A DNA stretch of 64,000 bases from positions 62,001 to 126,000 of the forward strand of contig NZ_BJTG01000004.1 in assembly GCF_013340205.1 (NCBI RefSeq). Reading direction: 5' to 3'. The notes beneath the pieces are model-generated. The model did no database searches and had not been told where the DNA came from. It saw nothing but the letters and a program-made list of their open reading frames with translations. Shown here in pieces: positions 24,616 through 62,530 of the stretch. Within the stretch, counting starts at the first letter, position 1. Each line of letters begins with the position of its first letter. The stretch is from Anaeromyxobacter diazotrophicus. Its GTDB lineage: Bacteria; Myxococcota; Myxococcia; Myxococcales; Anaeromyxobacteraceae. The position numbers and the translations under genes were made by a program.

Positions 24616-24692
24616 GTGCGGCGAGGCTAGCATCGCGGACCGGGCGGGCGCACGCGTGCGTCAGACGACCGCACTCTCGTGCCCAGGGTAAA

Positions 24693-24704
24693 TGACCCGG
24701 GTCA
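24693..24704. promoter_or_regulatory. Perfect 12-bp palindrome TGACCCGGGTCA
   Basis: This perfect palindrome lies in the 204-bp region between the divergent Cys-rich lipoprotein gene (start 24615) and the 31-haem cytochrome gene (start 24820). It is 78 bp from the first and 116 bp from the second start. Symmetric half-sites TGACC/GGTCA suit a dimeric regulator. No regulator gene is in the window. Confidence 0.35.
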
Positions 24705-24819
24705 AACGGCGTGTCCCCCATTCGTGAAAAACTGCGGGCACACCAACTGGAGCTTTACGTCTCAGGACCGGACGGGGTCGATCCCCGGCTGGTCCGCGAC
24801 GTCACCTGGGAGCACCCCG

Positions 24820-35169: not shown

Positions 35170-35296
35170 CACCGCCGCGCGCACCCCGGTCCCCGCCGGG
35201 CGCGCCCCTCCCGCGACCCGCGGGATCAAGGAAAGCCCGTGTGGGCATTGAGTTGAATTGTCGCACCCTCGGTGAGAGGGCGCCCGCTTGGCGGCC

Positions 35297-35312
35297 TGGG
35301 ACCTACCTTGCC
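35297..35312 (+). promoter_or_regulatory. Sigma-54 (-24/-12) promoter of the 62-haem cytochrome gene
   Basis: TGGGACCTACCTTGCC matches the RpoN consensus TGGCACG-N4-TTGCW with the invariant GG and GC separated by ten bases. It predicts a transcript start near 35323, 28 bases before the ATG, leaving room for the GGAGG ribosome site. Confidence 0.65.
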
Positions 35313-35350
35313 TCCAACGTGCGTTGAGTGTGCGGCAGGAGGGGGACGCG

Positions 35351-45881: not shown

Positions 45882-46778
45882 CTACTGGACCAGGGAGAAC
45901 TCCTGGACGCGGTTGTTGTAGCGGTCCGCCACGAACGCCGCGGACTGCGTGAAGCAGAGCTGGCTCGGGTAGTACACGAACCCCTCGTTCCACCCGATGC
46001 TGAGCTGCCGGCCCTGGAAGCTGCCGTCGATCCCGAGCACCACGATGCCGTTCCCGTGCGCGTCGACCAGGAAGAGCTTCCCCTGCCTCGCGGTGAGGTA
46101 GACGGGGAAGTTCATCCGGTCCTTCATGCCCTTCGTGAGGGCGTGGAAGGCGCTGGAGCCCTTCTCGGCGGCCCAGACCGCGGCGCCCACCGCGTCGAGC
46201 GCGTAGAGGGTGCCCGCGGCGTCCACGGCGACGTCGGTGAACTGCCCGCCGGCGGGCAGCTCGAGCTGGCGTCCGCCTCCGTTCGCCTCGAGCACGAGGA
46301 CGCGCCGGCCGGCGACGTCGAGGAGGTAGAGGTTGTCCGACGCGTCGACCTTGAAGCTCCCCACCACCACCGAGGAGGCGTTGGCCACGCCCCGCGGCTC
46401 GACCAGACCGCCGAAGGCGCCCTTGTCGTCGAGGCGGGCGATGCGGTGCGTCTTGCCGTCGAGGACCAGGATGCCGCCGTGGCTGTCGAGCTGGACGCGG
46501 GTGGGGTAGGAGACCTGCACCAGCTTGAGCTCCGCGCCGGCGCCGAGCCGCCCGTTCTTGAACGGGTAGCTGAGCAGCCGACCGTTGCCGGTGTCGGCGA
46601 CGACCACCTTCTCCTCGGAGCACGCGACGCCCTCCGGCGTCTTGAGCGGCGCCTCCTTGGCGTCCTGGTACAGAGCCTGCTCGAAGAGGAACGCGACGGG
46701 CTCGGCCGACGCCGCCGCGGGCACGAGGAGCAGGCCCGCGAGGAGCGCCGCCATCTTCCTGGGCGTGGGCACGGTCAT
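45882..46778 (-). CDS. Secreted NHL-repeat beta-propeller protein
   Basis: A 298-residue exported protein (signal MAALLAGLLLVPAAASA). NHL-type repeats are visible: LKTPEGVACSEEKVVVADTGNGRL, GGILVLDGKTHRIARL-like and VYYPSQLCFTQSAAFVADRYNNRVQEF. Such six-bladed propellers are usual partners of multihaem cytochromes in Geobacter-type loci. No haem site is present. The ATG at 46778 overlaps the stop of the upstream 16-haem gene by one base (TGATG), so it ends a coupled operon PPIase, 26-haem, 16-haem, NHL. Confidence 0.85.
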   Translation of the reverse strand: MTVPTPRKMAALLAGLLLVPAAASAEPVAFLFEQALYQDAKEAPLKTPEGVACSEEKVVVADTGNGRLLSYPFKNGRLGAGAELKLVQVSYPTRVQLDSHGGILVLDGKTHRIARLDDKGAFGGLVEPRGVANASSVVVGSFKVDASDNLYLLDVAGRRVLVLEANGGGRQLELPAGGQFTDVAVDAAGTLYALDAVGAAVWAAEKGSSAFHALTKGMKDRMNFPVYLTARQGKLFLVDAHGNGIVVLGIDGSFQGRQLSIGWNEGFVYYPSQLCFTQSAAFVADRYNNRVQEFSLVQ

Positions 46779-48115
46779 CACCTCTTCAGGTTCTCGTGGC
46801 ACTTCGTGCACAGGTCGTTGGTCGTGGCGTACGGCATCATGTGCTTGTACTCGGTGCCGTGGCTGCGGTGGCAGCTCAGGCACTGCACCGTCAGGTTCTT
46901 GTTGCGCGGGTCCTTGAACTTCTCGCCCATCGGGTGCGAGCTGTGCTTGAGCCAGTCGTGGCAGGTGCCGCACAGCTCGACCACGTCCGACTTCACGAAC
47001 AGGAGCGGCACGTCCGCGCCGTGCGGGTCGTGGCAGGCGGTGCACTGCCCCTCGTTCACCGGCTGGTGCTTGGTGGGCGAGAGCTGCTGCCGCTTGATCG
47101 AGTCCTCGTGGCAGGCGCCGCAGACGCTCGTCATGCTGGCCTTGAGCAGGCCCTTCGCGGGCGACGCGTGCGGCCCGTGGCAGGCGAGGCAGTTCCCGTC
47201 CACCACCGGCCGGTGGACCTGGCCCTTGGTGGCGATCGCGTTCATCTTCTGCGCGTGGCAGCCGCGGCAGAGGTTCGCGCCCTGTGCCCGGGTCCGCAGC
47301 GCGTTGGCCGAGCCCGCCGGCTCGTGGCACTGCGCGCACATGCCCTTGGCGACCGGCGGGTGGACGCGGTTGTAGAGCATGCCGCGGCTGTCCGAGCCGT
47401 GCGGGTCGTGGCAGCTCGTGCAGCGCGCCTTGCCCACCGGGTAGTTGAGGTGCTTCTGCGCGATGATCGGCTTGTCGATCTTGTGGCACTGCAGGCAGAG
47501 GCCCGGCACGTCCGCCCGGAGGAGCGAGGGGCCCTTGTCCGAGCCGTGCGGGTCGTGGCAGGCGGTGCAGCCGCCCTGCTCGATGGGCCGGTGCTTGAAC
47601 TTCGCCTTGGCGGCGGCCTCGGCCACCGGCTTGTGGCAGCCCGCGCACAGGTCGGCGGCGGGCTTCACCAGGTTGTTCTTGTTGGCCGCGGCGTGCGGGT
47701 CGTGGCAGGCGACGCAGCCCTTCTCGGCGATGGGCTTGTGCGTGCTCTTGGGCGCCTTGGGCACCACACCGGCGTGGCAGCGGAAGCAGGCGCCGTTGCC
47801 CTGGTTGGCGAGCAGCTTGCCGTGCTCCGAGGAGTGCGGGTTGTGGCAGCCCGTGCACTGGCGCGAGCGCACCGGCGTGTGGACGAAGGGGCGCTTCAGC
47901 ACGTCCTCGAATGCGCCGACGTGGCAGTCGAGGCAGAGCCGCCCCTCCGCGCCCGCCTTGAGCTTGAAGACGGCGGGGGCCTGGGCGGAGGAGACCGGCT
48001 GCGTGGTGGCGGCCGCCGCCGCCTTGCCCTGGGACTTCGGGGCGGCGCGGGCCGCGCCCGCGGCGCCGGCGGAGACGGCCAGCGCGACGACGAGGGAGAG
48101 GTGTCTCGCGGTCAT
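46778..48115 (-). CDS. 16-haem-motif secreted cytochrome c, paired CxxCH family
   Basis: A 445-residue exported protein (signal LVVALAVSAGAAGAARA). I count sixteen CxxCH motifs, all canonical, spaced in pairs with the repeated motif HDPHGS and KHxP: the doubled-CxxCH (Paired_CXXCH) family of DmsE/NrfB-like cytochromes. Each pair is about 50 residues. The C-terminus ends DLCTKCHENLKR. It is preceded by the related 26-haem gene, 11 bp away. A role as periplasmic electron wire, or a component of the outer-membrane conduit, is likely. Confidence 0.92.
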   Translation of the reverse strand: MTARHLSLVVALAVSAGAAGAARAAPKSQGKAAAAATTQPVSSAQAPAVFKLKAGAEGRLCLDCHVGAFEDVLKRPFVHTPVRSRQCTGCHNPHSSEHGKLLANQGNGACFRCHAGVVPKAPKSTHKPIAEKGCVACHDPHAAANKNNLVKPAADLCAGCHKPVAEAAAKAKFKHRPIEQGGCTACHDPHGSDKGPSLLRADVPGLCLQCHKIDKPIIAQKHLNYPVGKARCTSCHDPHGSDSRGMLYNRVHPPVAKGMCAQCHEPAGSANALRTRAQGANLCRGCHAQKMNAIATKGQVHRPVVDGNCLACHGPHASPAKGLLKASMTSVCGACHEDSIKRQQLSPTKHQPVNEGQCTACHDPHGADVPLLFVKSDVVELCGTCHDWLKHSSHPMGEKFKDPRNKNLTVQCLSCHRSHGTEYKHMMPYATTNDLCTKCHENLKR

Positions 48116-48126
48116 GAGCTCGTCCT

Positions 48127-50082
48127 CTACTTCGGGTTCGCCAGGTGGCAGGCGTCGCACTGGCGCGCCGCGAAGGGAGCGTGGACCATCGCCTTGAAGA
48201 ACTTGGGATCCTTCGACGCGTGCGGATCGTGGCAGCTGACGCAGCGGACGCGCTGCGGGTCGATGGAGAGGTGGGCCGCCGCGAACTCCTTCGCCTTGAA
48301 GTCGTGGCACTGGCTGCAGAGCTCGGCCACCGGCTGGGTGGTGAGCCACGGCTCGGTCGAGCTGTGCGGCTTGTGGCAGGTGAGGCAGTCGTCCACCGGC
48401 TGGTGCGGCTTCTCGGCGGCGAGCTTCTCCTTCATCTGCTTGTGGCAGGAGAGGCAGAGGTCGGGGCTCCCCGCCAGGAGGAGCGACTTCAGGGCCGACT
48501 TGTGCGGGCTGTGGCACTTGCTGCAGTCGCCCGCGTCGAAGGCGGCGTGCAGGCTCTTCGCGCCGGCCGCCTCCTGGCCCTGCTTCGCGTGGCACTTGAG
48601 GCAGACTGCCTTCTGGTCGGTGACCAGCATGCCGGTGGCGTTGGTGCCGTGCGCGTCGTGGCACCCCAGGCAGTCGCCCTTGGCGAACGGCGGGTGGTTC
48701 GAGCCGCTGCCGGGGTCCTTCATCAGCTCGCCGTGGCACTGCTGGCAGAGCTGGGCGCCGGTGGCGCGGAGCAGCTTGGGGTTGTCGGAGCCGTGGCCCG
48801 AGTGGCAGCTGTCGCACAGGCCGTCGAGCACCGGCTTGTGAGTGTGGGTCTTGATGAAGCGCGTCTCGGCGTCCTGGTGGCAGCCGTAGCAGACGCGGTC
48901 GACGCGCGCCTTGGCCATGGCGCTGAAGTTCGAGCCGTGCGGGTCGTGGCAGGCGATGCAGGCGCCCTTGGCGAACGGCTGGTGCACCGTCTTCCGCTTC
49001 TGCTGCACCGTCTTCGCGTGGCAGGAGGCGCACAGCGCGGTGGCCTCGGTGTCGAGCAGGGACTTCGCCTTGCTGGCGTGGGGCTTGTGGCAGGAGGCGC
49101 AGCCCCCGGTGGCGAGCGGCTTGTGCTTCACCGCCACCGGCTCGGCCATCTTCTTGTGGCAGCGCAGGCAGAGCTGGTCGCCCGCGGCGCGGACCAGCTT
49201 GGCGGAGTCTGAGGCGTGCGGGTCGTGGCAGGAGAGGCACTCGCCCTTCTTGAAGGGGGCGTGCAGGACCGTCCCGCCGTTGGCGAGGGCGGCGTCGTCG
49301 TGGCAGCTCGCGCAGAGCTTGCCGCCCTGCTCGGTCACCGCGAACGGCTTGGGCGAGGTCGCGGGCTGGTGGCAGGCATCGCAGGAGCCGCTCGACACGG
49401 GGTTGTGGAGCGACGCGCGGAGGAGCTTCGGCTCGGAGGAGGAGTGCGGCGCGTGGCAGGTGGTGCAGGACTTCGTCGCCACCGGGTAGTCGCCGTGCGC
49501 CTTCTTGAAGTTGCCCTTGCCGGCGTCGTGGCACTTCACGCAGAGCTGGTTCGGCGCCGCGACGAGGAGGGCCTTCTGGGCGGAGGCGTGGGCCAGGTGG
49601 CACGCCTTGCAGCCCTCCTTCGCCAGCACCGGGTGGACGACCTTCTGCTCGAAGGGCGCCCGCTTGTGGCACTCGTAGCAGGCCTCGTTGCCGGCCGCGC
49701 GCAGCATGTGCGGCTGGTTGGAGCCGTGGGCGTCGTGACACTTGGTGCAGTTGCCGTTGCGGAGCACGGGGTGGACGTTCGGCTTGTCCATCCCGATGGT
49801 CTGCTTCGCGTGGCAGGCGTAGCAGAGCTGGTTACCCGGCTGCTTCAGCGCCAGCTTGGGGACGATGCCGTGGCGGAGGTGGCAGTCCTCGCAGCGCTTC
49901 TGCTTCACCGCGCCGTGGACGAACTTGGCCGAGCCGTACTTCTCGTTGAACTTCTTGTGGCACTCGGTGCAGTCCTTGCCCTTCATGGCGCGCTGCGCCG
50001 CCGCCGCGCCCGGGGCGGCGGCGAGCAGCGCCGCCGCGGCCAGGCCGAGCAGGGTGGTCCACCGTCGCATGGTCCAGGTCAC
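48127..50082 (-). CDS. 26-haem-motif secreted cytochrome c, paired CxxCH family
   Basis: A 651-residue exported protein. The GTG at 50082 has a GAGGA site seven bases ahead, whereas the ATG at 50070 has none, so the longer form is preferred. A signal peptide is followed by 26 canonical CxxCH motifs in doubled units, with VHPVL, HDAHGS, HDPHAS and HKPHSS between them. It is a longer relative of the 16-haem neighbour. From memory, Geobacter sulfurreducens has a 26-haem protein near omcS; if so, the gene order here is conserved. It would conduct electrons along the envelope. Confidence 0.92.
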   Translation of the reverse strand: MTWTMRRWTTLLGLAAAALLAAAPGAAAAQRAMKGKDCTECHKKFNEKYGSAKFVHGAVKQKRCEDCHLRHGIVPKLALKQPGNQLCYACHAKQTIGMDKPNVHPVLRNGNCTKCHDAHGSNQPHMLRAAGNEACYECHKRAPFEQKVVHPVLAKEGCKACHLAHASAQKALLVAAPNQLCVKCHDAGKGNFKKAHGDYPVATKSCTTCHAPHSSSEPKLLRASLHNPVSSGSCDACHQPATSPKPFAVTEQGGKLCASCHDDAALANGGTVLHAPFKKGECLSCHDPHASDSAKLVRAAGDQLCLRCHKKMAEPVAVKHKPLATGGCASCHKPHASKAKSLLDTEATALCASCHAKTVQQKRKTVHQPFAKGACIACHDPHGSNFSAMAKARVDRVCYGCHQDAETRFIKTHTHKPVLDGLCDSCHSGHGSDNPKLLRATGAQLCQQCHGELMKDPGSGSNHPPFAKGDCLGCHDAHGTNATGMLVTDQKAVCLKCHAKQGQEAAGAKSLHAAFDAGDCSKCHSPHKSALKSLLLAGSPDLCLSCHKQMKEKLAAEKPHQPVDDCLTCHKPHSSTEPWLTTQPVAELCSQCHDFKAKEFAAAHLSIDPQRVRCVSCHDPHASKDPKFFKAMVHAPFAARQCDACHLANPK

Positions 50083-50111: not shown

Positions 50112-51821
50112 TCAGGAGCCGATCTTGGTCAGGTACACCTTCACCGGGTGCGCCTTGCGCAGCTTGCCGGCGTAGTCCTTCAGTGCGGCCTCGACGTGCT
50201 CGGCGAACAGCTTCTTCGCGATCTGCCCCTTCACCTCGGCGAAGGGCTGCGCGCCGGTGGCGATGGCGTCGGAGACGTGGACCACGTGGTACTGCGCGCT
50301 CTTCGCGGCGTACAGGCGGTAGTCGCCCTTCTTCGTCCCCGCGAGCTGCTGCGCCAGGTCGGCCGGGATGGTGGTGGCCGCCACCGTCGAGCCATCGAGC
50401 GAGGGGTTGGCGAGCTCGTCCGGCACCTGCCGCTCGGCGTTGGCCTTGAACCACTTGTAGTCGGTGCCCGAGCGGAGCTTGGTGAGCGCGGCCTGGGCGT
50501 CCTTCACGTCGCGGAAGGCGACGCTCTCGAGCTTGTACATGGCGGGGTAGCTGAACTCCGCCTTGTGCTGCTCGTAATACTTCTGCTCCTCCTCGTCGGT
50601 GACCTTGATCGAGGGGGCGATGGTCTTCTCGAGGAAGGTGCCGAAGGTGGTGGAGCGCTCGTACTCCGCCAGCTCCTGCCGGTAGGCCGCGCTCTTGTCG
50701 AGCCCTTGCCGCCGCGCCTCGAGCACCACGATCCGCGGCGAGACGAGGCCGTCGAGAGTGCTCGCCTTCTGCGCGTTGACCCGCTTCTCGCGGATGGCGC
50801 CCTCGAGCCCGTGGTAGAACTGCCCCTCGAGCCCCTTGGCGAGGTCGGCCACGGTGATGGGCTTCTCGCCCTTGAGCTGCACCAGCGGGCGCTCGTCCTT
50901 CTTCATCGCGGCGAAGCCGGGCTTGGCGGCCTCGAAGTCGAGCTTCGCGAGCAGCTTCTCGTCCACCTTGGCGTACTTCTTCACCAGGCCCTTGTAGAAG
51001 CGCGCCAGCGCGAGCTGCTGGTTGCCGGTGAGGGACCGCTTCTCGGCCTCCTGGCGCGCCTTCGGGTTCTCGGGGTAGCGGAACGCCTCGACCTTGAGGA
51101 CCGCGAACCCCTCGCCGACCTTGACCGGCGCGCTCACCGCGCCCACGTCGAGCGGCTGCACCGCCTCCAGCACCTGGGGGAGCATCTCCTTGCGAGGCAG
51201 GAAGACGGCCGGCTCGCCGCCCTTGGCCTTCTTGTCCGCGACCGCCTTCTTCGCGAGCTCGTCGAAGCTCTTGCCGGCCGCGACCGCCGCGCTCATCGCC
51301 TGGGCGTCGGCCTCGGCGGGGAACAGCACCGACTTCACCTTCCACTCCTTCACGGTCTCGCGGTAGGCGCGCTCGACCGCCATCTGGTCGGGCCGCACGG
51401 GCGCGAGGACCTTCGCCTTCACCATCTCGCGGAGCGCCTGCTCGCGGTGCTCGGCCACCGCCTTCTTGAGCTCGGGGAGCTCCGGGATGCCCATCGCGCG
51501 CGCCTCGATGACGAGGAGCCGCGCGTCGATCATCCGGTCGAGGAGGGGCGCGAAGTCCTTCTTGCCGGCGCTCTTGGCGTCGCCCATGGCGCCGTGGGCG
51601 CCGGCGAGCACCTTCGACAGCTCGCCCAGCGTGATGGCCTCGTTCTCCACCTCGGCCACCGGCAGCGTGGCGGAGGCGGGCGCGAAGAGGGGCACCTTCG
51701 TGCTCTTCCCGTCCCGCGTGAAGTAGGCGTTCACCCCGGACGAGGAGGCCTTGGCCTCCGCCAGCGCGGCGGCCGGCGAGACGAGGAGGAGGAGCGTGGC
51801 GAGCAGCCGGCGGTTGTTCAC
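50112..51821 (-). CDS. Periplasmic peptidyl-prolyl isomerase with two PpiC-like domains
   Basis: A 569-residue exported parvulin. The GTG at 51821 is nine bases after an AAGGGG site; signal LLATLLLLVSPAAALA. An N-terminal SurA-like helical part (AITLGELSKVLAGAHG) is followed by a first rotamase core near residues 205-280 (FDELAKKAV..GGEPAVFLPRKEMLPQVLEAV) and a second SurA/PpiC-like half after 370. PPIases occur next to multihaem cytochrome genes in metal reducers, probably to help fold the Pro/Gly-rich haem proteins. First in a coupled operon with the two cytochromes and an NHL protein; it has a sigma-54-type promoter. Confidence 0.88.
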   Translation of the reverse strand: MNNRRLLATLLLLVSPAAALAEAKASSSGVNAYFTRDGKSTKVPLFAPASATLPVAEVENEAITLGELSKVLAGAHGAMGDAKSAGKKDFAPLLDRMIDARLLVIEARAMGIPELPELKKAVAEHREQALREMVKAKVLAPVRPDQMAVERAYRETVKEWKVKSVLFPAEADAQAMSAAVAAGKSFDELAKKAVADKKAKGGEPAVFLPRKEMLPQVLEAVQPLDVGAVSAPVKVGEGFAVLKVEAFRYPENPKARQEAEKRSLTGNQQLALARFYKGLVKKYAKVDEKLLAKLDFEAAKPGFAAMKKDERPLVQLKGEKPITVADLAKGLEGQFYHGLEGAIREKRVNAQKASTLDGLVSPRIVVLEARRQGLDKSAAYRQELAEYERSTTFGTFLEKTIAPSIKVTDEEEQKYYEQHKAEFSYPAMYKLESVAFRDVKDAQAALTKLRSGTDYKWFKANAERQVPDELANPSLDGSTVAATTIPADLAQQLAGTKKGDYRLYAAKSAQYHVVHVSDAIATGAQPFAEVKGQIAKKLFAEHVEAALKDYAGKLRKAHPVKVYLTKIGS

Positions 51822-52097: not shown

Positions 52098-53315
52098 TCA
52101 GCGGGCATGATCGGGCTTCCGCTGCGGATCGGCCGCGCCCGCTGGCCGGCGCGGCGCGCTCACCATCTGCTCGACCGCGGAGCGCGCCATCCGGCAGGCG
52201 AGCCGGGGCACCGTGCCCACCTTGCCGGCGTCGAAGAAGAAGACCCCGTCGTCCCCCTGGTTGTAGGACGTCGATTGCCAGAGGACGCGCCCCGCCCGGT
52301 CGTCGAGCACGGAGACCGTGAAGTTGGCGGTCGGCGCGCCGCTGCCGCCGGCGTCCGTGTAGTCGAAGACGTCGCCGGCCACGAGCAGGTCCACGCCGAG
52401 CGCGCCGTGCAGCGTCCGCAGCTGGTCGAGCGAGACGCCGCCCTCCATCACGATCCGCTGCCGGAGAAGCACGTCCCGCACCACCCCCGGCTCGACGAGG
52501 GTGAGCCCCGGCATCGAGGCGAGCTGCCGCGCGAACGTCAGCGCCACCGCCTCGCCGGCGAAGCGGCGGCGCGAGAGGTTGCGGAATGGGACCACCGCCA
52601 CCGTGAGCCGCTCCTCGTCCTGCGCGAAAATCCCCGTCCGCGACCGGACCTTGGGGCGGAAGCGCCGGCCGTCGGGGCAGGGCGGGGCGCTCGGCCCCTT
52701 CCCCTGGAGCGCGTCGGCGAGCGACTGGCCGAGCCGCGCGAGCACGCGGTCCCGCAGCGTGCGCACCTCGCGCACGATCCCGAGCCCGAGCAGGCCGGGC
52801 GACTCATCGCCCGCCTGGGCGACGCCGTCGATCCAGCGCACGGTCGCCTCAGGCCCGGAGACGAGGCGCATGGTCATGCCGAACGAGGGCCGCGACTCGT
52901 CGTAGAAGTCGAGCGAGGAGACGACGACCCCGTCCACGTCGAGGTCGCGCGCCGCGGCGGCCGAGGTGGCGGCGTCGATTCCGCCCGTGTAGCGGATGCG
53001 GTGTCGCGCGAGGAAGCGCTCGAGGAGGTCGCCGCCGATGACGTCGAGCCCCCGTCGCGCCAGGGCCAGCTCGACGGCGCCGCGGAGCTCGCGCGCGCCG
53101 ATCGCGGCGCCCGAGAGGTTCTCGACCGGGAACACCGCCACCCGCGCCAGCGCGCCGGGCTCGCGCGGCGGGACCGGCAGCGGGGCCTCCTCGGCCGGCT
53201 CGGCCGGCTCGGCCGGCGCCTGCGCCGCCGCGGGCGGGGGCAGCGCCCACGCCGCGGCGGCGAGCAGCGCCAGGAGGGCGCGGCGGCTACTTGAGGAGCT
53301 TGTCGATGAGGTCAT
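52098..53315 (-). CDS. Secreted CsgG/LpoB-like repeat protein
   Basis: A 405-residue exported protein with an Ala/Pro-rich start after the signal. It contains two copies of a CsgG-like nucleotide-free Rossmann-type module: RVAVFPVENLSG with LDVIGGDLLERFLARHRIRYTGG, and VAVVPFRNLSRRRFAGEAVALTFARQL with VEPGVVRDVLLRQRI. Each matches the first strand and helix of CsgG/GNA1162-type proteins, which are outer-membrane lipoprotein or pore components. It overlaps the preceding CsgG-like gene by 29 bases and follows it in one operon. There is no lipobox, so it may be periplasmic. Confidence 0.75.
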   Translation of the reverse strand: MTSSTSSSSSRRALLALLAAAAWALPPPAAAQAPAEPAEPAEEAPLPVPPREPGALARVAVFPVENLSGAAIGARELRGAVELALARRGLDVIGGDLLERFLARHRIRYTGGIDAATSAAAARDLDVDGVVVSSLDFYDESRPSFGMTMRLVSGPEATVRWIDGVAQAGDESPGLLGLGIVREVRTLRDRVLARLGQSLADALQGKGPSAPPCPDGRRFRPKVRSRTGIFAQDEERLTVAVVPFRNLSRRRFAGEAVALTFARQLASMPGLTLVEPGVVRDVLLRQRIVMEGGVSLDQLRTLHGALGVDLLVAGDVFDYTDAGGSGAPTANFTVSVLDDRAGRVLWQSTSYNQGDDGVFFFDAGKVGTVPRLACRMARSAVEQMVSAPRRPAGAADPQRKPDHAR

Positions 53316-53859
53316 TGACCGCGGCCTCGGTCACGTCGTTGATGGGCTCTCCGCCGCCGCCCAGCAGCCGGTCCCGGAAGCGGATCCCGCCCTTGGTGGT
53401 GGAGCCGGCGAAGACCACCTTGCCGGTGGCGGTCTCCTGCATCTGGATGCTCAGCGAGATGACGTTGGCGCTCGCGGTGCCCGAGCGCACGTCGCCGTAC
53501 TCCTTCACCACGCCGGTGATGACGGCGTCGGCCTTGAGCGTCTGGCCGAGCTTCACCACCTCGTCCACGCTCGGGGCCGTCGGAGAGGCGACGCCCACCT
53601 TGCCGAGCCCCCGGATCACCTCGCCCTGGGGGAGCACGTACACGGCGCCGGTGGAGAGCAGGGCGTTGGCGAAGACGTCGCGCACCCGGTCGCCGGCGAG
53701 GTTGTCGCGGCTCAGGTTCGTGAAGGGGACGACGGCCACCGTCTTCACGGAGCCGAAGTCCATGTTCGCGTCCTGATAGCGGTGCGAGGTGTGAGACGCG
53801 CACGCCGCCAGGATCACGAGCAGCGCGGCGGCGCGCGATGGGTTGAGGGACGGGTGCAT
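53287..53859 (-). CDS. GNA1162/CsgG-like outer-membrane lipoprotein
   Basis: A 190-residue lipoprotein (lipobox VILAAC). The ATG at 53859 has a GAGGAG site and is preferred over the ATG at 53874. The mature part starts with a CsgG-type module: TVAVVPFTNLSRDNLAGDRVRDVFANALLSTG (core VVPFTNLSRDNLAGD), then ADAVITGVVKEYGD and NVISLSIQMQETATGKVV, as in GNA1162 and CsgG. CsgG is the outer-membrane secretion channel of curli; GNA1162-like proteins are common in EET loci. Placed directly after the beta-barrel gene, it suggests a complex for exporting or holding filament components. Confidence 0.82.
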   Translation of the reverse strand: MHPSLNPSRAAALLVILAACASHTSHRYQDANMDFGSVKTVAVVPFTNLSRDNLAGDRVRDVFANALLSTGAVYVLPQGEVIRGLGKVGVASPTAPSVDEVVKLGQTLKADAVITGVVKEYGDVRSGTASANVISLSIQMQETATGKVVFAGSTTKGGIRFRDRLLGGGGEPINDVTEAAVNDLIDKLLK

Positions 53860-53880: not shown

Positions 53881-56118
53881 TCAGCGGAGCGCCAGCACCA
53901 GCCCCGCGAACAGCGAGCGGGAGCTGGTGTCGAGCGCCGGAGAGTGGGTGTCGTTGAGGCTGTAGGAGACGTCCACGAAGGTGCCCTGGCGGATGTTCCA
54001 GCGCAGCGACGGCCCGTACTGGCGGGTCTTGAGGTCGGCGGCGGTGTCGAGCGTCTCCGAGTATCCGAATCGGAGCAAGAGGGTGCCGCCGGGGAAGGGC
54101 GAGAAGCTGCCGTTGAAGTTGGCGAGCGTGGTGGTGCCGCGGGTCCCGATGACGCGGGCGACGCCGCCGGAGAGCGCCAGCGCGGGCACCGGCGTGAACG
54201 AGGCGGTGCCCTCCAGGCGGCGCGAGCGATCGGTCGTCTCGGGGCGGCCGGCCCCGGCCGAGGCGCTGGAGGAGCTGACGGCGGCGCTGCCGGTGAGCGC
54301 GAGGAGGCGGTTCGGGGTGAGGGTCGTGTTCGCGCCGAGGACCGCGTTCGTGATCGTCTGGCCGTTCTCGTTCCGGCCCGCGTTGTAGCTGGCGTTGGCG
54401 GAGAGGCTCACCCCCTGGTACAGGTCGGCCCGGACGCCGGCGGTGGCGCCGTTGCCGAACGAGGTGCCGGCCGCGTTCTGCCCGAGCTGGGCGTTGTAGG
54501 TGGCGCTGGCGCCGAGGGTCGGGAGCGGGTCGGCGGCCAGCGTGGCGCTGAAGCGGTTCGAGGACACGTGCCCGCGCGTCTCGTCCGAGTCGGCGCGGTC
54601 CAGGCGAGCGCTCAGGCCGACGATGGGCGAGAGCCGCTTCGTGAGCGAGAGGCCGTTCATGAGGCTCCACGTGTACTGCGCCGGGCCGAGGCGGTGGGTG
54701 ATGAAGAGCGAGGTGTCGTAGGCGAGGTTCGGGACGCTCAGGATCTGGTAGCGCGCCGAGGCGGTCAGCACGCCGCTCACGTCGGTGTGGCTGGCGCGCG
54801 CCTGCTCGGCGGGGACGATCTGCAGGAACTGGAGCTCGGTGACGAGGATGTTCGCGTAGCGCTGGTCCGCGGTGACCGAGGGCAGGATGCCCTTGGCGAC
54901 GACCTTGAGGTAGCGCGCCTGGGTCTGCTGGATGGTGATCTCGAACCGGTTGAAGAGCGAGCTGAACTGCACCGGCGCCCCGCCGCCGGCGGGGATCGCC
55001 TTGTCCACCCGCGCCCAGGTGACGTTGTCGTCGCTCCGGTAGACGTCGAAGGAGACGGCGTTCGCGACCGCGTCCGGGAGCTGCCGGTCCACCCAGAGGT
55101 AGAGGGTGTTGACGGTGGAGAGCGAGGTCCCGAACTGCGCGCCGAGATCGCGGAGCTTGACGTCGCCGGCGAGGACCGGGGCGAACCCGAGGTCGATCCC
55201 GGCGCTGCCGGCCAGGTCGCCGTCGACGAGGCGCTGGTTCGGCGCCAGGGTGTCGCGCTCCGGGGTGGCCGGGAAGTCCTCGATGAGGGAGAGGCCGGCG
55301 CTCGGCACCTGCGGCACCGCCACCGTGCCGCCGTTCCCTACCGCCAGCACGTCCGTGGTGCGCGCCGCCAGGCTGTAGGACACATAGGTCTGGAGCCGGT
55401 TGTCGAGGAGGTGGTCGGAGCGGGTGATCCGCCCGGCGTTCACGACGTCGCGCGACTCGCTGCGCTTCACCCGGTCGGTGTTGTCGGTGTAGCGGAAGCT
55501 GTAGCGGAGGTCGGTGTCGCGGTCGGGCGGGTAGATCGCGCCGAGGAACACCTCGTCGGTGGCGTTGTCGAGGGCGCGGCGGGAGCCGTCGTAGCTCAGG
55601 TTGCGCGAGAGGCGGAGCTGCAGGGAGGGCAGGTCGGCCGGGTTCCAGCCGGCGTAGGCGGTGTAGCTCTCGCGGAACCGGGTCGGGGCGCTCACTGCCT
55701 CCCCCGCGGTCGTCACCCTGGAGCTCTCCTCGGTGCGATCGTAGCTGAGGCCGCCGCCCAGCACCGGCGTGCCGAGGGTGAGCCGGCCGTAGCCCGTCCA
55801 GCGCTTCAGGTCCTGGTCGGTGCGGACGCCGTCGAGCGAGGTCTTCCCGAGCGTCCACTCGTAGAGCCCGCCGCCCGAGAAGCTCACGAGCGGGAAGAGC
55901 TGCTTGTCGAGCGCCAGCCGGTAGCGCTGCAGCCACTGGCTGATGCGGCTCTCGGTGACGTTGCCGGCCGCGTCGGTGGTGCGGGTCACCGAGTTGACGT
56001 AGCTCGGCTCGGCCACCGCGGAGAGGCTGTCGCCGCGCGCGGCGGCGGCCCACGCGGCGAGCACCAGGGCGCAGAGCGCCCGGGCCGCGATCGCGCTGGC
56101 ATCGCTCCGCGCCGGCAT
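53881..56118 (-). CDS. Outer-membrane beta-barrel protein with inserted discoidin-like domain
   Basis: A 745-residue exported protein. After the signal peptide it consists of alternating short beta strands with aromatic ends (SRISQWLQRYRLAL, LRYSFRYTDNT, TYVSYSLAAR, and LFAGLVLAL at the C-terminus), as in large porin-like barrels of cytochrome conduits. About residues 305-435 break this pattern with a galactose-binding/discoidin-like segment (LYLWVD, VSFDVYRSDDNVTWARVDK, ARYLKVVAK, ILVTELQF). It may embed a cytochrome in the outer membrane or secrete one. Three bases separate it from the upstream YVTN gene, and it is followed by the GNA1162-like lipoprotein. Confidence 0.75.
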   Translation of the reverse strand: MPARSDASAIAARALCALVLAAWAAAARGDSLSAVAEPSYVNSVTRTTDAAGNVTESRISQWLQRYRLALDKQLFPLVSFSGGGLYEWTLGKTSLDGVRTDQDLKRWTGYGRLTLGTPVLGGGLSYDRTEESSRVTTAGEAVSAPTRFRESYTAYAGWNPADLPSLQLRLSRNLSYDGSRRALDNATDEVFLGAIYPPDRDTDLRYSFRYTDNTDRVKRSESRDVVNAGRITRSDHLLDNRLQTYVSYSLAARTTDVLAVGNGGTVAVPQVPSAGLSLIEDFPATPERDTLAPNQRLVDGDLAGSAGIDLGFAPVLAGDVKLRDLGAQFGTSLSTVNTLYLWVDRQLPDAVANAVSFDVYRSDDNVTWARVDKAIPAGGGAPVQFSSLFNRFEITIQQTQARYLKVVAKGILPSVTADQRYANILVTELQFLQIVPAEQARASHTDVSGVLTASARYQILSVPNLAYDTSLFITHRLGPAQYTWSLMNGLSLTKRLSPIVGLSARLDRADSDETRGHVSSNRFSATLAADPLPTLGASATYNAQLGQNAAGTSFGNGATAGVRADLYQGVSLSANASYNAGRNENGQTITNAVLGANTTLTPNRLLALTGSAAVSSSSASAGAGRPETTDRSRRLEGTASFTPVPALALSGGVARVIGTRGTTTLANFNGSFSPFPGGTLLLRFGYSETLDTAADLKTRQYGPSLRWNIRQGTFVDVSYSLNDTHSPALDTSSRSLFAGLVLALR

Positions 56119-56121
56119 CGC

Positions 56122-57525
56122 TCAGCGGAGCTCCCCCTCGATCGCGGTGGCGTAGGGCGACTCGCCGACGTCCACCAGGCCCGTCAGGTGCCGGCTGGTG
56201 AGGTCGATGAAGGCGACGGCGCGGAGGTCGGGGAGGACGGCCAGGAGGGTGTTCTCCACCTCGTCCACCGCCAGCGTCGAGGCGGCGCCGGGCAGCTCGA
56301 AGCTGTCGATGGGGACGATGGAGAGCGGGTCGAACACCTCGAGGGTGCGACCGACCGCGACGTAGACGCGGTCGGTGCGGACGTCCACCTCGACCGCGCT
56401 CGCCCCCAGCCCGACGTAGAGGCGGCTCGCCACCGTGAGGTCGGGCAGCGTGAGCACCGTCAGGTAGGAGGAGCCGCCGTGGACGACGTAGAGCCGCCCG
56501 CCCGTCCGGTCCACCTGGCCGCGCAGCGGCTCGGCGTCCACCGGCACCGTCGCCGCGACCTGCCGGCTTGGCAGGTCCACCACCGTGACGGTGTTGGAGC
56601 GCCGGTTGAAGACGTAGGCGCGGCGGCCCGAGCGGTCGAGCCGGAGCGAGTAGGGCTCCTCGCCGGTCGGCGCGCGGGCGAGCTCGCTGGCGGTGGACAG
56701 GTCGAGGAAGCTCACTGAGTAGGAGCCCTGGTTGAGGACCACCAGCGCCTGCCCGTCCGGCGTGAGCGCCAGCTCCCGCGGCCGATCGCCGCCGCGCAGC
56801 GGGAGGCGCTGCAGATCGGCGCCGGTGGCGAGGTCCAGGACCTCCACCTGGTCCTCGCCAGGGAGCGCGACGTACGCGCGGTGGGCGCGGCGGTCGAGCA
56901 CGACGCCCTCCGGGGCGCGCCCGACCGGCGTCACCGCCAGCGCCCGGTGCCGGTGCCGGTCGAAGGCGGTGAGGCTGGCGAGGGCGGTGCTGGAGCAGTA
57001 GCCGATGAGCTGCTCGACGGGCGTCCGCGCCTGCTCGGCCGTGAAAGCGGGCGAGAAGGCGAAGCTCCGGTCCACGGAGCGCGCGTACTGCAGCGTGAGC
57101 GCGACCAGCGTGGCCCGCCCGCGCTCCACCTGGAACGCCACCGGGACGCGGTCGGGCTCCGGCGGTACGAGCAGGTCGGAGCGACCCTCGGGCGAGCCGA
57201 GGGTGGCGCGCTTCACCGTGAGGAGGAGCGAGGTGTAGTCCCCGGGCGGTAGCCGTCCCCAGGCGAGCAGCCGCTGCCGGCTGGTCCCGAGGCCACCCAG
57301 GTTAGGGAGAAGCAGCTCGAGCGGAGCGGCGGGCCCGTCGGCGCGCGCCACCTGCGCGGCGGACACGGTGAAGGCGAGGTGCTCAGCCTCGGCCGGGAAG
57401 GGCTCGAGGTAGACGTACACCTCCCCTTCGTCCCCGAGGGGAGGGAGGGTGCGCTGCGAGCGCGCCGGTGCCGCACAGGCGAAGGCGCACATGGCCAGCG
57501 CGAGCCAGGTCGTGGCGCTCCTCAT
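56122..57525 (-). CDS. Secreted YVTN-type beta-propeller protein
   Basis: A 467-residue exported protein. The ATG at 57525 has GGAGG six bases upstream; the frame before it is spurious. The first 150 residues form a beta-rich domain with a DUF4382-like pattern (LAFTVSAAQVARADG, then GDYTSLLLTVKRA). From about residue 180 there are YVTN/NHL repeats: YVALPGEDQVEVLDLATG, RAYVFNRRSNTVTVVDL, LYVVHGGSSYLTVLTL, which build a beta-propeller. No haem site. It starts the operon with the beta-barrel and CsgG-like genes, downstream of the omcS-like terminator. Confidence 0.8.
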   Translation of the reverse strand: MRSATTWLALAMCAFACAAPARSQRTLPPLGDEGEVYVYLEPFPAEAEHLAFTVSAAQVARADGPAAPLELLLPNLGGLGTSRQRLLAWGRLPPGDYTSLLLTVKRATLGSPEGRSDLLVPPEPDRVPVAFQVERGRATLVALTLQYARSVDRSFAFSPAFTAEQARTPVEQLIGYCSSTALASLTAFDRHRHRALAVTPVGRAPEGVVLDRRAHRAYVALPGEDQVEVLDLATGADLQRLPLRGGDRPRELALTPDGQALVVLNQGSYSVSFLDLSTASELARAPTGEEPYSLRLDRSGRRAYVFNRRSNTVTVVDLPSRQVAATVPVDAEPLRGQVDRTGGRLYVVHGGSSYLTVLTLPDLTVASRLYVGLGASAVEVDVRTDRVYVAVGRTLEVFDPLSIVPIDSFELPGAASTLAVDEVENTLLAVLPDLRAVAFIDLTSRHLTGLVDVGESPYATAIEGELR

Positions 57526-57616: not shown

Positions 57617-57649
57617 TAAAAAAAGGGAGGCCGCTTTCGCGGCCCCCCT
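57617..57649 (-). terminator. Rho-independent terminator of the omcS-like gene
   Basis: On the minus strand: GGGGGGCCGC, loop GAAA, GCGGCCTCCC, then seven Ts. It begins 27 bases after the stop of the OmcS-like gene at 57676. This is the clearest intrinsic terminator in the window. It separates the omcS-like unit from the YVTN/barrel operon. Confidence 0.9.
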
Positions 57650-57675
57650 CTCACGTCAGCAGCAGCGGAGGACGG

Positions 57676-59022
57676 CTAGTCCTTCGCGTGGCACTTGTTG
57701 CAGAGACCGCGGGCGTACGGCCCGAACGCGGTCGCCGCGCGGCCGTAGTACGCGACCTGCAGGGCGGTCTGGTCGAGGCCCATGTTGATCTTGCCGTCGG
57801 CCGTGCTCGGGTCGTAGATGGCGTTGCCCGAGGCGTCCGCGATCGTCATGAACTCGTTGTAGATGCTGTAACGGGTCATGCTCTCGAAGGCCGACGCGTG
57901 CGCGCGGTGGCAGGAGAGGCAGATGACGTTCGGGGCGTTGGTGGTGTCCGCGCCGAACTTCGGCGAGGCGACGGCCGCCGCGAGGGCGGTGTAGTCGTTC
58001 GTGCCGAGCTCGAAGGGCACCAGGGTGGTGTACGCGGTGGCCTGCGCGCCCGTCATGATGCCCGAGGTGACGTAGCTGTTGTAGTTCGTCACGATGAACG
58101 ACGGGAGCTTGGCGAGGTTACCGGCCGGGTGAACCAGGCCGGGCATGCCGGAGGTGTAGCCGTTCTCGAGCATCCCACCGTGGCAGTTGGCGCACCACTC
58201 GGCCATGCCCTGGCCGTAAGCGACGCGGACCAGCGCGGAGCCGTCCGTGCCCTCGGAGGCGTTGTAGTTGCCGGCGACGACGGCGGCGGGCGGGTCGTTC
58301 GCGAAGGCGAAGCTGCCCGTGCCGGAGAAGGACTTCGGCTGGTAGTTCTTGCCGGCGAGGAGGCGATACACGCCGACCGCACCCTTGCCAGCGACCGGGG
58401 CGGCGCTGGTGTTGTACGAGCCGGAGTTGAAGATCGGGAGGCCAGTGGTGGCGATCGCGCCGGTCGCGTCACGGCGGTAACGGCCGTGCGGGTCGTGGCA
58501 GGAGGAGCAGGCCAGGTTCTCGCGGGGGAACGTGCCGCCCGGCGCGACGGTCTGGATCGCGTCCTTGTTGTAGCCGTAGTCGGCCGCGACGATGTTGTGG
58601 CCGTGGCGGTCGCCCTCGATCGAGGTCAGCGCGCCGCGCACCTTGAAGTTCAGGGTCTTCTTCACCCAGCCGAAGTCACCGCCCGGGGTCTGGGTCTGGG
58701 GGACCTGCGCCGAGGTGAGGAGCGTGCCCGGCACGGAGTCGCCGACCATCAGGCTGTCCGGGGTGGCGATGTGGTAGCTGCTCGGGCGGTCCAGCGGACC
58801 CTCGTGGCAGTTGAGGCAGGCCGACGACTGGTCGCTGGCCTTGAGGAGGTAGATCCCCGACTGGAGGATCGTCCCGCCCTTCGGGGTCATCTTCGCGCCC
58901 TCGAAGGAGTTGTGCATCGTGTGGCAGCCTTCGCACTCGCCGACGCCGCCGGAGTGGAAGGCGTACGCGTTGCCGAAGGCAAGCGCGAACACCGCCGCGA
59001 ACGTGATCTTGAGAAGCTTCAT
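57676..59022 (-). CDS. omcS: OmcS-like hexahaem nanowire cytochrome c
   Basis: A 448-residue exported protein (signal LKITFAAVFALAFGNAYA) with six CxxCH motifs: CEGCH, CLNCH, CSSCH, CANCH, CLSCH, CNKCH. It matches from end to end the Geobacter sulfurreducens OmcS sequence as I remember it: AFHSGGVGECEGCHTMHNS, TPGGDFGWVKKTL, EGDRHGHNIVAADY, CSSCHDPHGRYRR, ATTGLPIFNSGSY, VAYGQGMAEWCANCH, LVHPAGN, CLSCHRAHASAFESMTRY, TIADASGNAIYDP and the terminal GLCNKCHAKD. OmcS is 432 residues and polymerises into haem-stacked filaments that carry electrons out of the cell. Start ATG at 59022 has a GGGGAGAG site. The His contexts needed for neighbour-to-neighbour ligation appear conserved. Confidence 0.93.
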   Translation of the reverse strand: MKLLKITFAAVFALAFGNAYAFHSGGVGECEGCHTMHNSFEGAKMTPKGGTILQSGIYLLKASDQSSACLNCHEGPLDRPSSYHIATPDSLMVGDSVPGTLLTSAQVPQTQTPGGDFGWVKKTLNFKVRGALTSIEGDRHGHNIVAADYGYNKDAIQTVAPGGTFPRENLACSSCHDPHGRYRRDATGAIATTGLPIFNSGSYNTSAAPVAGKGAVGVYRLLAGKNYQPKSFSGTGSFAFANDPPAAVVAGNYNASEGTDGSALVRVAYGQGMAEWCANCHGGMLENGYTSGMPGLVHPAGNLAKLPSFIVTNYNSYVTSGIMTGAQATAYTTLVPFELGTNDYTALAAAVASPKFGADTTNAPNVICLSCHRAHASAFESMTRYSIYNEFMTIADASGNAIYDPSTADGKINMGLDQTALQVAYYGRAATAFGPYARGLCNKCHAKD

Positions 59023-59107: not shown

Positions 59108-60052
59108 TCAGTTCAAAAGCTGCGCGGCGTCCTCGATCTGGAAGACGCTGACGCCGCGCCGCGCGTACTGCGAGACGAAGACGCGGCCATGGCCCGCCTC
59201 GATGTCGACCGGCGCGAGCAGGTTCTCCGGGTTCGGGCCGCGGTAGCCGAACTCGCGCTGGAAGCGGAGCTCCTTGTCGAACACCAGCACCGCCGACTTG
59301 AGGAGGTCGGTGACGTAGATGCGGCCCTGCTCGTCGGCGGCGATCCCGGCGACGATGTTGAACTTGCCCGGCGCGCCGCCGCGCTGGCCGAAGGGGCGGA
59401 GCTTGCCGTCGAGCGAGAGGACGAAGGCCCTGAAGAGCGGCTGGATGGTGAAGAGGACGTTGCCCTCGCGATCGACGTTGAACCCCTTGAACCCGAGGTC
59501 CTGCCGCTGCTGCTCGTTCTTCACCTCGAGCATCGGGCCGACGTCGAGGAGCTGCTGAAACCGGCCCTCGAGATCGGTGACGACGACCTTCATCGCGCCG
59601 AAGTCGCACAGGTACAGGTGACCCTGGGCCTGACGGAGCCCGCCCGGCCGAAAGTTCGTGAGCGACGGAGGCAACCCGGTGACCGCGACCTTGTGCAGCA
59701 CCTCGCCGCGGAAGTTGCAGCGGACGAGCGTGAGCTGCTGGTCGGCGGTGAGGGCCATGAGCTCGCCGTCGTCGAGCGCGGCGATGGAGAGGACGCTGCC
59801 GAGCTCGCGGTCCTCGCCGAAGGCGAAGACCTCCATGCCGCTCTGGTTGAAGACGCGGACCCCGCCGCCGCCGAGGACGAACAGCTCGTCGTCGCGGGCG
59901 TCGTAAGAGAGTCGGGCGCCCTGGAACGGGATGAAGCCGTTCAGGGTGGAGAGGCTGTAGAGATAGCGGGCGCGGATCGCCTGCGCGTCGGCGGCCTGCG
60001 GCAGGGCCGCGAGGGCAGCGAGGACGGCGGCGATGGCGACGCGCTGCTTCAT
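59108..60052 (-). CDS. Secreted NHL-repeat beta-propeller protein before omcS
   Basis: A 314-residue exported protein (signal VAIAAVLAALAALPQAADA) made of NHL-like repeats: RLSYDARDDELFVLGGGGVRVFNQSG, LKSAVLVFDKELRFQREFGYRG and FNIVAGIAADEQGRIYVTDL. In Geobacter an NHL-repeat gene stands next to omcS as I recall; the same arrangement here suggests a function in folding or export of the filament subunit. The ATG at 60052 has a GGAGAGAC site. An 86-bp gap leads to omcS, which has its own ribosome site. No haem motif is seen. Confidence 0.85.
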   Translation of the reverse strand: MKQRVAIAAVLAALAALPQAADAQAIRARYLYSLSTLNGFIPFQGARLSYDARDDELFVLGGGGVRVFNQSGMEVFAFGEDRELGSVLSIAALDDGELMALTADQQLTLVRCNFRGEVLHKVAVTGLPPSLTNFRPGGLRQAQGHLYLCDFGAMKVVVTDLEGRFQQLLDVGPMLEVKNEQQRQDLGFKGFNVDREGNVLFTIQPLFRAFVLSLDGKLRPFGQRGGAPGKFNIVAGIAADEQGRIYVTDLLKSAVLVFDKELRFQREFGYRGPNPENLLAPVDIEAGHGRVFVSQYARRGVSVFQIEDAAQLLN

Positions 60053-60517: not shown

Positions 60518-62530
60518 TCAGTGACAGCCGAAGCAGCTCGAGCCCCAACGCGGCGCCACGTCCACCGCCCCGTTGACGTGCAGCGCCGGGTTCGAGATGC
60601 CGGTGCCCACGCCGGCGGTGGTGCCCGTCGCGTCCGGGTGGCACACCTGGCACTGGTTGCCGCCGCCGTGATTGCCGCTGTGCCAGTAGCCGGTGCGCGG
60701 CGGGTTGCCGTGGCAGGAGCCGCAGGTCATCGGTCCGTCCGTCCAGGCGGGCGTGGCGTTCTTGCCGGCGTAGGAGACCGTCACGTAGACGGGCTGGTCG
60801 AGCGACCAGTCCCACGAGGTGTACGTGTACGTGCCCTTGAAGCCGCCGTGGCAGTACGTGCTGGCGCAGGTGGCGCCGTTCGGCCGTGAGTAGGCCGGCG
60901 GCGCGAACCCCTTCGTCGCCACGCCGCCGAAGGTGACGGTGGCGTAGGGGCCGTCGATGTGGCCCGGCGAGAACATGTCGGTGGGCGTCACGTGGCACAC
61001 CGCGCAGTCGAACGGCGTGGCCAGCGTCGAGCCCACGTGCTTCGTGTGGGCGCCCACGCGGATGAGGTCGTTCCCCTGGCCCCAGATCGTCCGCGGGGGA
61101 GCGCCGGTCGCGTTCGCGTCGCCGCCGTGGCACCCGATGCAGGTGGCGAAGTTCGAGGCCCGGCTGCCGTTGTGGCAGTCGGCGCAGGCGACGCCGCTCA
61201 CGCCGCCGTCGAGGAGCGCGCCGTGGCAGGTCTTGCAGCTCGAGAGGCCGCGAACGGCCGTGAAGGCGTGGAAGTCGGGGCTCGTCGGGTCGATCCACGA
61301 GGGGTCGTGTCCGCTCGCCTCGATGGCGCCGTCGAGGTGGAGGCCGCCGTTCGACGGCGGGATCATGGTGCCGTCGGGGTTCATCGTCTTGTCGTGGCAG
61401 ATCGAGCAGACGGTGAGGCTGCTCCCGCTCTTCGGGTGCGGCGCCGGGGGCGGGATGCCGTGGCAGGTGCCGCAGGCGGCCTGCTGCTGGCCGACCTTGG
61501 TCCAGTCGGGCGCGTTGGCGGTGTTCCCGTTCCGCATGTTGCCGTGGCAGTAGGTGCCGGAGCAGGTCGGGGCGGCGCGGTTCCAGGCGGCGGGCGGCGT
61601 GTCGCCGACGGCGGTGCCGCCGAACGTGACGGTGGCGGTCGGGCCGTCGATGTGGCCGGCGGCGAAGGCGTCGGCGGGCTTCACGTGGCAGACGACGCAG
61701 CCGAAGCCGGGGGAGATGGCGGTCGGGGCGAGGTGCGCGCTGTGCGCGCCGACGCGAACCGGATCGCTCGCCTGGCCCCAAGTCGCCCTGGGCGGAGCGC
61801 CGGTCTGGTTGTCCGTCCCGCCGTGGCACATGACGCAGTTCTGCGACCAGGTGGTCACGCCGGCCGGCAGCGCCTGGTCGTGGCACTGCCCGCACGCCAC
61901 GCCCACCGAGCCGCCCTTCAGATCCTGGCCGTGGCAGGCCTGGCAGGTGGCGAGGCTCTTGTCCGCGGAGAAGGCGTGGAAGCCAGGGTCGGCCTGGTCC
62001 ATCCAGGAGGTCGCGTGCGAGATGAACTTGACCGTTCCCTGGGTGTGCTTCGTGACGTCGTGGCAGATCTGGCAGTCGTCGCGGGTCGGGTTCGCGATCC
62101 CGAGGGCGGGGTGCGTGGCCGGGAGCGCCGTGAGCGTGTGGCAGTCGGTGCAGTTGAGCGTGCCCTGGTTCCACGCCACCGTGTGGGCGGGCGCGCCGAG
62201 CGGGCTGTGGCAGCCGACGCCGCAGGTGGTCGGCGTGGTGCCGCTGCCGGGCGTGAGGGTGCCGGTGGCGGAGGTGCCGCCCGTGTACGTGTAGCCGTTG
62301 AAGGCGAGGACGCCGCCACAGGGATGACACACGGCGCAGGCGATGCCGGACGCGTCGTGCTTGGCGTGCGCGCCGGTGGGCGTGCACTGCGTCGCGGTCG
62401 CCGCCGGCCGCTTCGAGACGACACGCCGCTGCCACGTGGCGCCGTCGGCGCTCCCGCCACAGCCGGCGACGAGGAGCGAGAGCCCCGCCGCCGCGGCCAG
62501 CGTCGCCGACCACCTTGTCGTGCGCGTCAT
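60518..62530 (-). CDS. 19-haem-motif lipoprotein cytochrome c
   Basis: A 670-residue lipoprotein (LSLLVAGC). I count sixteen CxxCH, two CxxxxCH (CSGTYCH, CASTYCH) and one CxxxCH (CGVGCH) motif. The first 200 residues are diverged (CAVCHPCGG and so on). The rest follows the heptahaem plan of the 62-haem protein: HAFSADKSLATCQACHGQDL, VMCHGGTDNQTGAPPRATWG, VGAHSAHL, CVVCHVKPAD, TYCHG, CGTCHGIPPPAPHP, GGLHLDG. It ends with the same cap and the terminal CFGCH. Placed directly upstream of the omcS operon, transcribed in the same direction, it may be a partner of the filament system. Confidence 0.9.
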   Translation of the reverse strand: MTRTTRWSATLAAAAGLSLLVAGCGGSADGATWQRRVVSKRPAATATQCTPTGAHAKHDASGIACAVCHPCGGVLAFNGYTYTGGTSATGTLTPGSGTTPTTCGVGCHSPLGAPAHTVAWNQGTLNCTDCHTLTALPATHPALGIANPTRDDCQICHDVTKHTQGTVKFISHATSWMDQADPGFHAFSADKSLATCQACHGQDLKGGSVGVACGQCHDQALPAGVTTWSQNCVMCHGGTDNQTGAPPRATWGQASDPVRVGAHSAHLAPTAISPGFGCVVCHVKPADAFAAGHIDGPTATVTFGGTAVGDTPPAAWNRAAPTCSGTYCHGNMRNGNTANAPDWTKVGQQQAACGTCHGIPPPAPHPKSGSSLTVCSICHDKTMNPDGTMIPPSNGGLHLDGAIEASGHDPSWIDPTSPDFHAFTAVRGLSSCKTCHGALLDGGVSGVACADCHNGSRASNFATCIGCHGGDANATGAPPRTIWGQGNDLIRVGAHTKHVGSTLATPFDCAVCHVTPTDMFSPGHIDGPYATVTFGGVATKGFAPPAYSRPNGATCASTYCHGGFKGTYTYTSWDWSLDQPVYVTVSYAGKNATPAWTDGPMTCGSCHGNPPRTGYWHSGNHGGGNQCQVCHPDATGTTAGVGTGISNPALHVNGAVDVAPRWGSSCFGCH

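Follow-up and report, generated by a model that had tools for sequence, protein, structure and literature searches.

The gene considered here lies on the minus strand of the 64,000-nucleotide stretch of DNA analysed (the window), with its ATG at position 59022 and a TAG ending at 57676, and its start codon is preceded by a good ribosome-binding site, AAGGGGAG. A preliminary description of this DNA had given the same coordinates and the same product length of 448 residues. The plus-strand frame at 57676-59022 was discarded, as its translation lacked haem motifs. Directly downstream of the gene, a complete block of eight genes (D-E-F-G-H-I-J-K) was found, all on the minus strand (Table 1). The same eight genes follow OmcS-family genes in the same order in Geobacter sp. 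L1geo, in a Geobacteraceae MAG and in other Myxococcota, and in Nitrospirota the osc gene order is the same as far as the contigs reach.

Table 1. Features of the omcS-type locus, in window positions.
Feature	Position	Strand	Description
B	60518..62530	-	upstream 16-CxxCH cytochrome, CxxxxCH/CxxCH type; linked, outside the conserved block
C	59108..60052	-	secreted NHL-repeat beta-propeller; conserved neighbour upstream of omcS-type genes
OmcS orthologue	57676..59022	-	signal peptide MKLLKITFAAVFALAFGNAYA, then 427-aa hexahaem cytochrome starting FHSGGV
Intrinsic terminator	57621..57652	-	14-pair stem, 4-base loop, T-rich tail; between omcS and D
D	56122..57525	-	YVTN/YncE-type beta-propeller, OscD
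E	53881..56118	-	large outer-membrane beta-barrel, about 28-30 predicted strands, F5/8C-like insert, OscE
F	53287..53859	-	PelC/GNA1162/LpoB-type lipoprotein, OscF
G	52098..53315	-	secreted, PelC-like domain distantly related to F, OscG
H	50112..51821	-	periplasmic PpiC/SurA-type peptidyl-prolyl isomerase, OscH
I	48127..50082	-	26-CxxCH cytochrome, DmsE/MtrA-like repeats, OscI
J	46778..48115	-	16-CxxCH cytochrome, related to I, OscJ
K	45882..46778	-	NHL-repeat propeller, closes the eight-gene block

In Geobacter, the block GSU2500-GSU2493 has been tied to the maturation and secretion of OmcS (PMC12977616), and oscC, oscI and oscJ correspond to GSU2501, GSU2495 and GSU2494, respectively (PMC13194489). 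By interpolation from these published locus numbers, genes D-J are OscD-OscJ, with the isomerase gene H coinciding exactly with OscH. Compared through the Geobacteraceae loci G060 and G061, the osc operon (GSU2504-GSU2493) and the window are alike in all eight genes D-K, including their order and strand. According to Shen 2025, as far as it is cited in PMC13194489, OscH would act in folding, OscE, OscF and OscG in secretion, and OscD in nanowire morphology; the roles assumed below for OscD-OscH are thus second-hand and carried over from that Geobacter work.

The likeness of the encoded protein to OmcS is far beyond chance. In a search of PDB sequences, residues 22-448 matched residues 1-407 of the OmcS chain 6ef8_A over the full length (439 bits, E 1.6e-130), and besides OmcS (6ef8/6nef) no chain was found at E <= 0.001. 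Identity to OmcS was 57% over aligned columns. The protein contains exactly six CxxCH motifs, as the preliminary description had counted, and both of the signature segments it had singled out, AFHSGGVGECEGCHTMHNS as the first and CNKCHAKD as the last, are present; the mature N-terminus FHSGGV and the C-terminus CNKCHAKD are identical to those of Geobacter sulfurreducens OmcS (6EF8, 6NEF). The claimed agreement in motif order also held, but the spacing is not the same: from one haem-binding histidine to the next, the steps are 38/93/99/89/72 residues in OmcS and 39/103/105/91/73 in the window protein, which has about 20 residues inserted outside the CxxCH motifs.

OmcS has 12 histidine ligands, of which 11 come from its own chain and one, that of haem 5, from the neighbouring subunit (PMC6584659). 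Twelve histidines likewise stand out in our alignment of 21 sequences, 11 of them invariant and the twelfth nearly so; these are the six CxxCH histidines together with the six expected distal ligands, H2, H16, H110, H147, H257 and H335 (OmcS mature numbering). We take His16 to be, most probably, the ligand for haem 5 of the neighbouring subunit. All 12 expected ligands, including His16, are kept in the aligned window protein. Outside this set, a thirteenth shared histidine, His63, is retained by no more than 65% of the OmcS family, and OmcS histidines 53, 139, 247 and 309, which are replaced in the window protein, are not conserved across the family. His16 is absent from only one paralogue clade, encoded after gene K in Geobacteraceae operons, where R, T or A stands in its place; this restricted loss fits with the probable part of His16 as the ligand that crosses between subunits to haem 5. 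Such loss therefore does happen, but not in the window protein. The preliminary description had named two findings that would speak against an OmcS-like filament, namely loss of the inter-subunit histidine and an identity that is only local; since His16 is kept, the first is answered at the level of sequence, and the match spanning residues 22-448 answers the second.

Two side observations concern these ligands in other copies. The Geobacteraceae paralogue encoded after gene K (L055, L062-L066) retains all 12 expected ligands except His16 and is possibly a non-polymerising or end-cap subunit. In a copy from Archangiaceae that closely resembles the window protein (L004, 6625-7974), CHRAH has become CHRAN, with the loss of an expected distal ligand; the D gene was not seen after the OmcS-family copy on that contig.

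A published analysis distinguishes OmcS from the OmcS-like GSU2501 (OscC), which adjoins the eight-gene block in Geobacter and accompanies it in all Geobacter genomes of that study that carry the block (PMC12977616). The window gene has the position of OscC, next to D, and the sequence of the OmcS type. Geobacteraceae copies at the same operon positions were used as stand-ins for G. sulfurreducens OmcT, OmcJ and GSU2501. On this basis, the window protein was 61-65% identical to OmcS-position copies and at most 49% identical to OscC-position copies; the best identity to OmcS among the 76 Geobacteraceae genomes was 65%. In the maximum-likelihood tree, it fell into a clade of eight rows, together with the copies at the OmcS position in Geobacteraceae and two further ones from Myxococcota, with a support of 100/97 (99/98 with long branches removed), and orthology to OscC was rejected by the AU test (p 1.4e-8). 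Judged by its sequence, the window protein is thus a genuine member of the OmcS clade, and the OmcS-like identity originally proposed for it was borne out.

Membership of this clade leaves room for a hexahaem cytochrome at the surface or in the periplasm that does not polymerise and serves as a soluble or surface-bound carrier, as may OmcT, OmcJ and OscC. The place next to D, which is that of OscC in Geobacter, would suit such a carrier, and the AlphaFold2 model of the window protein (pLDDT 46, built from the 21-sequence alignment) was of too low a quality to speak for or against a polymer interface. Of the four paralogues in G. sulfurreducens, moreover, wire formation is known for OmcS alone, and beyond the genus a sequence model is not enough to certify a wire (PMC12977616). 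We nevertheless consider a carrier improbable, given the grouping with OmcS-position copies to the exclusion of OscC and the retention of His16 with every other expected ligand. It is also disfavoured by the gene content of the host genome (4.83 Mb), in which the window gene is the sole OmcS-family gene, so that the osc machinery could have no other client of the OmcS type. No OscC paralogue was found anywhere in this genome, in contrast to the osc operon of Geobacter, and the window gene, unlike that of G. sulfurreducens OmcS, stands alone without OmcT or OscC and adjoins D. Filaments have been seen for OmcS, and for the window protein, known here from its sequence, filament formation is likely.

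Regarding the genes downstream, structure prediction of E (aligned with eight relatives) gave an outer-membrane barrel with a pLDDT of 84, in which about 29 strands were assigned (taken below as roughly 28-30). Residues 260-410 form an inserted domain, with weak matches to F5/8C/galactose-binding domains in several relatives; OmcS filaments are reported to be glycosylated (PMC9473688), and this domain might bind sugars of the wire or the matrix. Profiles of both F and G matched PelC (for F, 9h80_C at 2.9e-5 and 5t11 at 2.3e-5; for G, 5t0z at 3.3e-7 and 9h80_C at 3.1e-5), where 5t0z, 5t10 and 5t11 are presumably PelC chains, and CsgG appeared at E of about 1e-3 in Pfam matches of relatives. Because of the barrel and these PelC matches, we propose that E, F and G look like an outer-membrane exit portal, in which a barrel would stand on a lipoprotein ring as in Pel export. 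The likeness to the PelB/PelC exopolysaccharide exporter (9h80) lies in the profile matches of F and G and in E also being a beta-barrel. The PelB barrel has 16 strands, well below the number predicted for E; a TPR part was not detected in E, and the cargo would be a cytochrome.

In place of an export portal, E, I and J can be read as an electron conduit of the Mtr/Pcc type, with an MtrA-like cytochrome inside an MtrB-like barrel and with OmcS docking on it. Ranked by Z, the fold of E was indeed closest to MtrB (6r2q_B, Z 17.0), MtrA (6r2q_A) was the best PDB sequence match of both I (E 4.9e-20) and J (E 4.7e-12), and I scored above the cut-off of the DmsE-family NCBIfam model; the MtrA matches therefore keep the conduit alive as a rival. 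However, CxxCH repeats may inflate matches of the MtrA type, the size of the barrel could likewise produce the match to MtrB, the MtrB alignment had an rmsd of 9.2 Å over 406 residues, and other large barrels reached Z 13-15 (13.3 for the PelB barrel). Resemblance to the MtrAB conduit (6R2Q), in fold for E and in sequence for I and J, is further offset by a weak superposition, by 26 and 16 haem motifs in I and J versus 10, and by the lack of MtrC in the block. PelC-like proteins such as F and G point to secretion and are not known to occur in Mtr systems, and OscE, OscF and OscG are reported as secretion factors in what PMC13194489 relays of Shen 2025. Taken together, we regard the conduit as rather unlikely.

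Between omcS and D, a strong intrinsic terminator was found on the minus strand, with a z of -3.1 for the 71-nt stretch. By one automatic criterion, such terminators follow 26 of 58 distinct OmcS-family genes and 2 of 138 other osc genes; the Fisher p value of 3e-14 for this contrast is too small, because the related sequences are not independent, and shuffles gave 1-3%. The hairpins are unrelated between phyla, and the pattern is absent from the published osc accounts examined. A plausible function is to provide the subunit in excess of the machinery. Terminators were also seen downstream of omcS-type genes at L079, L082, L002, L005, L014, L015, L018, L021, L023-L027 and L037-L039.

The host is a soil myxobacterium, almost certainly a member of the Anaeromyxobacter family and of another genus than Anaeromyxobacter, which the preliminary description had considered as a possible host. 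OmcS relatives are patchy within the phylum: they were found in 20 of 195 genomes, 16 of them among the 24 genomes of the host's family and 4 elsewhere, and were absent from one other genome of the host's genus (92% complete). The L004 and L016 copies come from another family of the same order, and a search of a plasmid collection gave no match. In tblastn searches, the window OmcS was closest to Geobacteraceae copies (61-62%), and identities in genomes of its own family were 56% (G002), 48% (G009) and 41% (G004 and G019). The G009 copy branches just outside the clade of the window protein, and both copies of G019, at only 40-41% identity, fall outside the OmcS clade. By contrast, the nearest relatives of D-J are in the host's family, and Geobacter is the most distant. 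A single clade of all OmcS copies of the host's family was tried and rejected (p 4e-4), a result that paralogy, and not transfer alone, can cause. The discordance between OmcS and D-J is absent from the published osc accounts examined; it would arise equally from a transfer of the gene for the subunit and from paralogues being lost differentially.

A bolder proposal joins these observations, and we put it forward tentatively, as one that may well prove wrong. The osc block would be a dedicated outer-membrane exporter of nanowires, in which E, with its roughly 28-30 strands, stands on PelC-like F and G, and which is related in part to Pel export and not to type II secretion or pili. The MtrA-like 26-haem cytochrome would charge the root of the wire, and the subunit would move between lineages separately from the exporter, a Geobacter-type subunit here being combined with an exporter of the Anaeromyxobacter family and without OscC.

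Regarding the input of electrons, the host genome encodes a triheme PpcA homologue with three CxxCH motifs (L086, 1333-1710), and a larger protein, encoded about 10 kb past the window end (G000:C4:134565-135692, L081), contains a PpcA-like triheme domain. The presence of a PpcA homologue with OmcS in the host is as in the PpcA-OmcS pairing of Anaeromyxobacter dehalogenans (PMC10954620). In the larger protein, an Ala/Pro-rich linker follows the domain, together with a C-terminal region, and it is this region that could be membrane-associated. Several other multihaem cytochromes were observed nearby: a plus-strand frame of 2172 aa at 35288-41806 with 53 CxxCH motifs and MtrC-like and CxxxxCH-type cytochrome domains, a plus-strand cytochrome with 25 CxxCH motifs at 24679-28239, and a minus-strand cytochrome with 9 at 31228-32949. 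At and past the window end (G000:C4:124772-132421, L081), two cytochromes with 16 and 33 CxxCH motifs are followed by a PpiC-type isomerase-like protein (C4:131297-132421), which looks like a second cytochrome-plus-isomerase cluster adjoining the osc locus.

Starting from what is directly observed at the omcS locus (gene order, homology, ligand conservation, clade and terminator), our preferred reading, to which we assign a probability of roughly 0.75, is that the window encodes an orthologue of OmcS which, once exported, assembles head to tail on the outside of the cell to give an insulated hexahaem wire, with the adjacent osc machinery as its builder. The Sec signal would be cut off before Phe1, and six haems, as expected from the CxxCH motifs, would be attached in the periplasm, with isomerase H assisting folding. 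The subunit would then leave through barrel E with the PelC-like F and G, an arrangement suggested by their predicted architecture, and D would shape the filament. Each new subunit would place its His16 on haem 5 of the adjoining subunit, and the ligand set would thus be completed by polymerisation itself. Electrons may be loaded by a PpcA-like triheme protein, perhaps with the MtrA-like I and J, and the terminator after omcS would hold subunit mRNA above that of the machinery.

Should filaments form, they may still not be the main respiratory conductor, a task that pili or porin-cytochrome conduits could fulfil instead, leaving the wire a structural, capacitor or condition-specific role. Even in Geobacter, what OmcS filaments do physiologically is a matter of dispute, and G. 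sulfurreducens still reduces Fe(III) oxide without all known cytochrome filaments (PMC11077965). This argument is itself contested, and the whole gene set is conserved over several phyla, which implies a selected role; a subordinate function for the wire is thus a serious possibility, although we place it below even odds.

The preliminary description had presented the locus as an OmcS-like cytochrome outside its usual Geobacter setting. That setting is not new, since OmcS and PpcA-E homologues were reported in 2024 from Anaeromyxobacter dehalogenans (PMC10954620), which shares its family and the osc block with the window, and the osc assembly machinery is called 'widespread and ancient' in the title of Shen 2025, as cited in PMC13194489. 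OmcS in the host is accordingly a well-supported new instance of a known system, and a stronger one than first stated, because the whole osc machinery is present. Added here are the E barrel with PelC-like F and G, the terminator bias, the discordance between OmcS and D-J, and the sole OmcS-family gene without OscC. The locus offers a second system, at a large phylogenetic distance and pared down to one wire subunit and one assembly block, without OmcT, OmcJ or OscC. In it, one can ask whether cytochromes of the OmcS clade also polymerise outside Geobacter, and whether their export needs no more than the osc block. The portal model of E, F and G makes the passage of a filament across the outer membrane addressable by structure and deletion.
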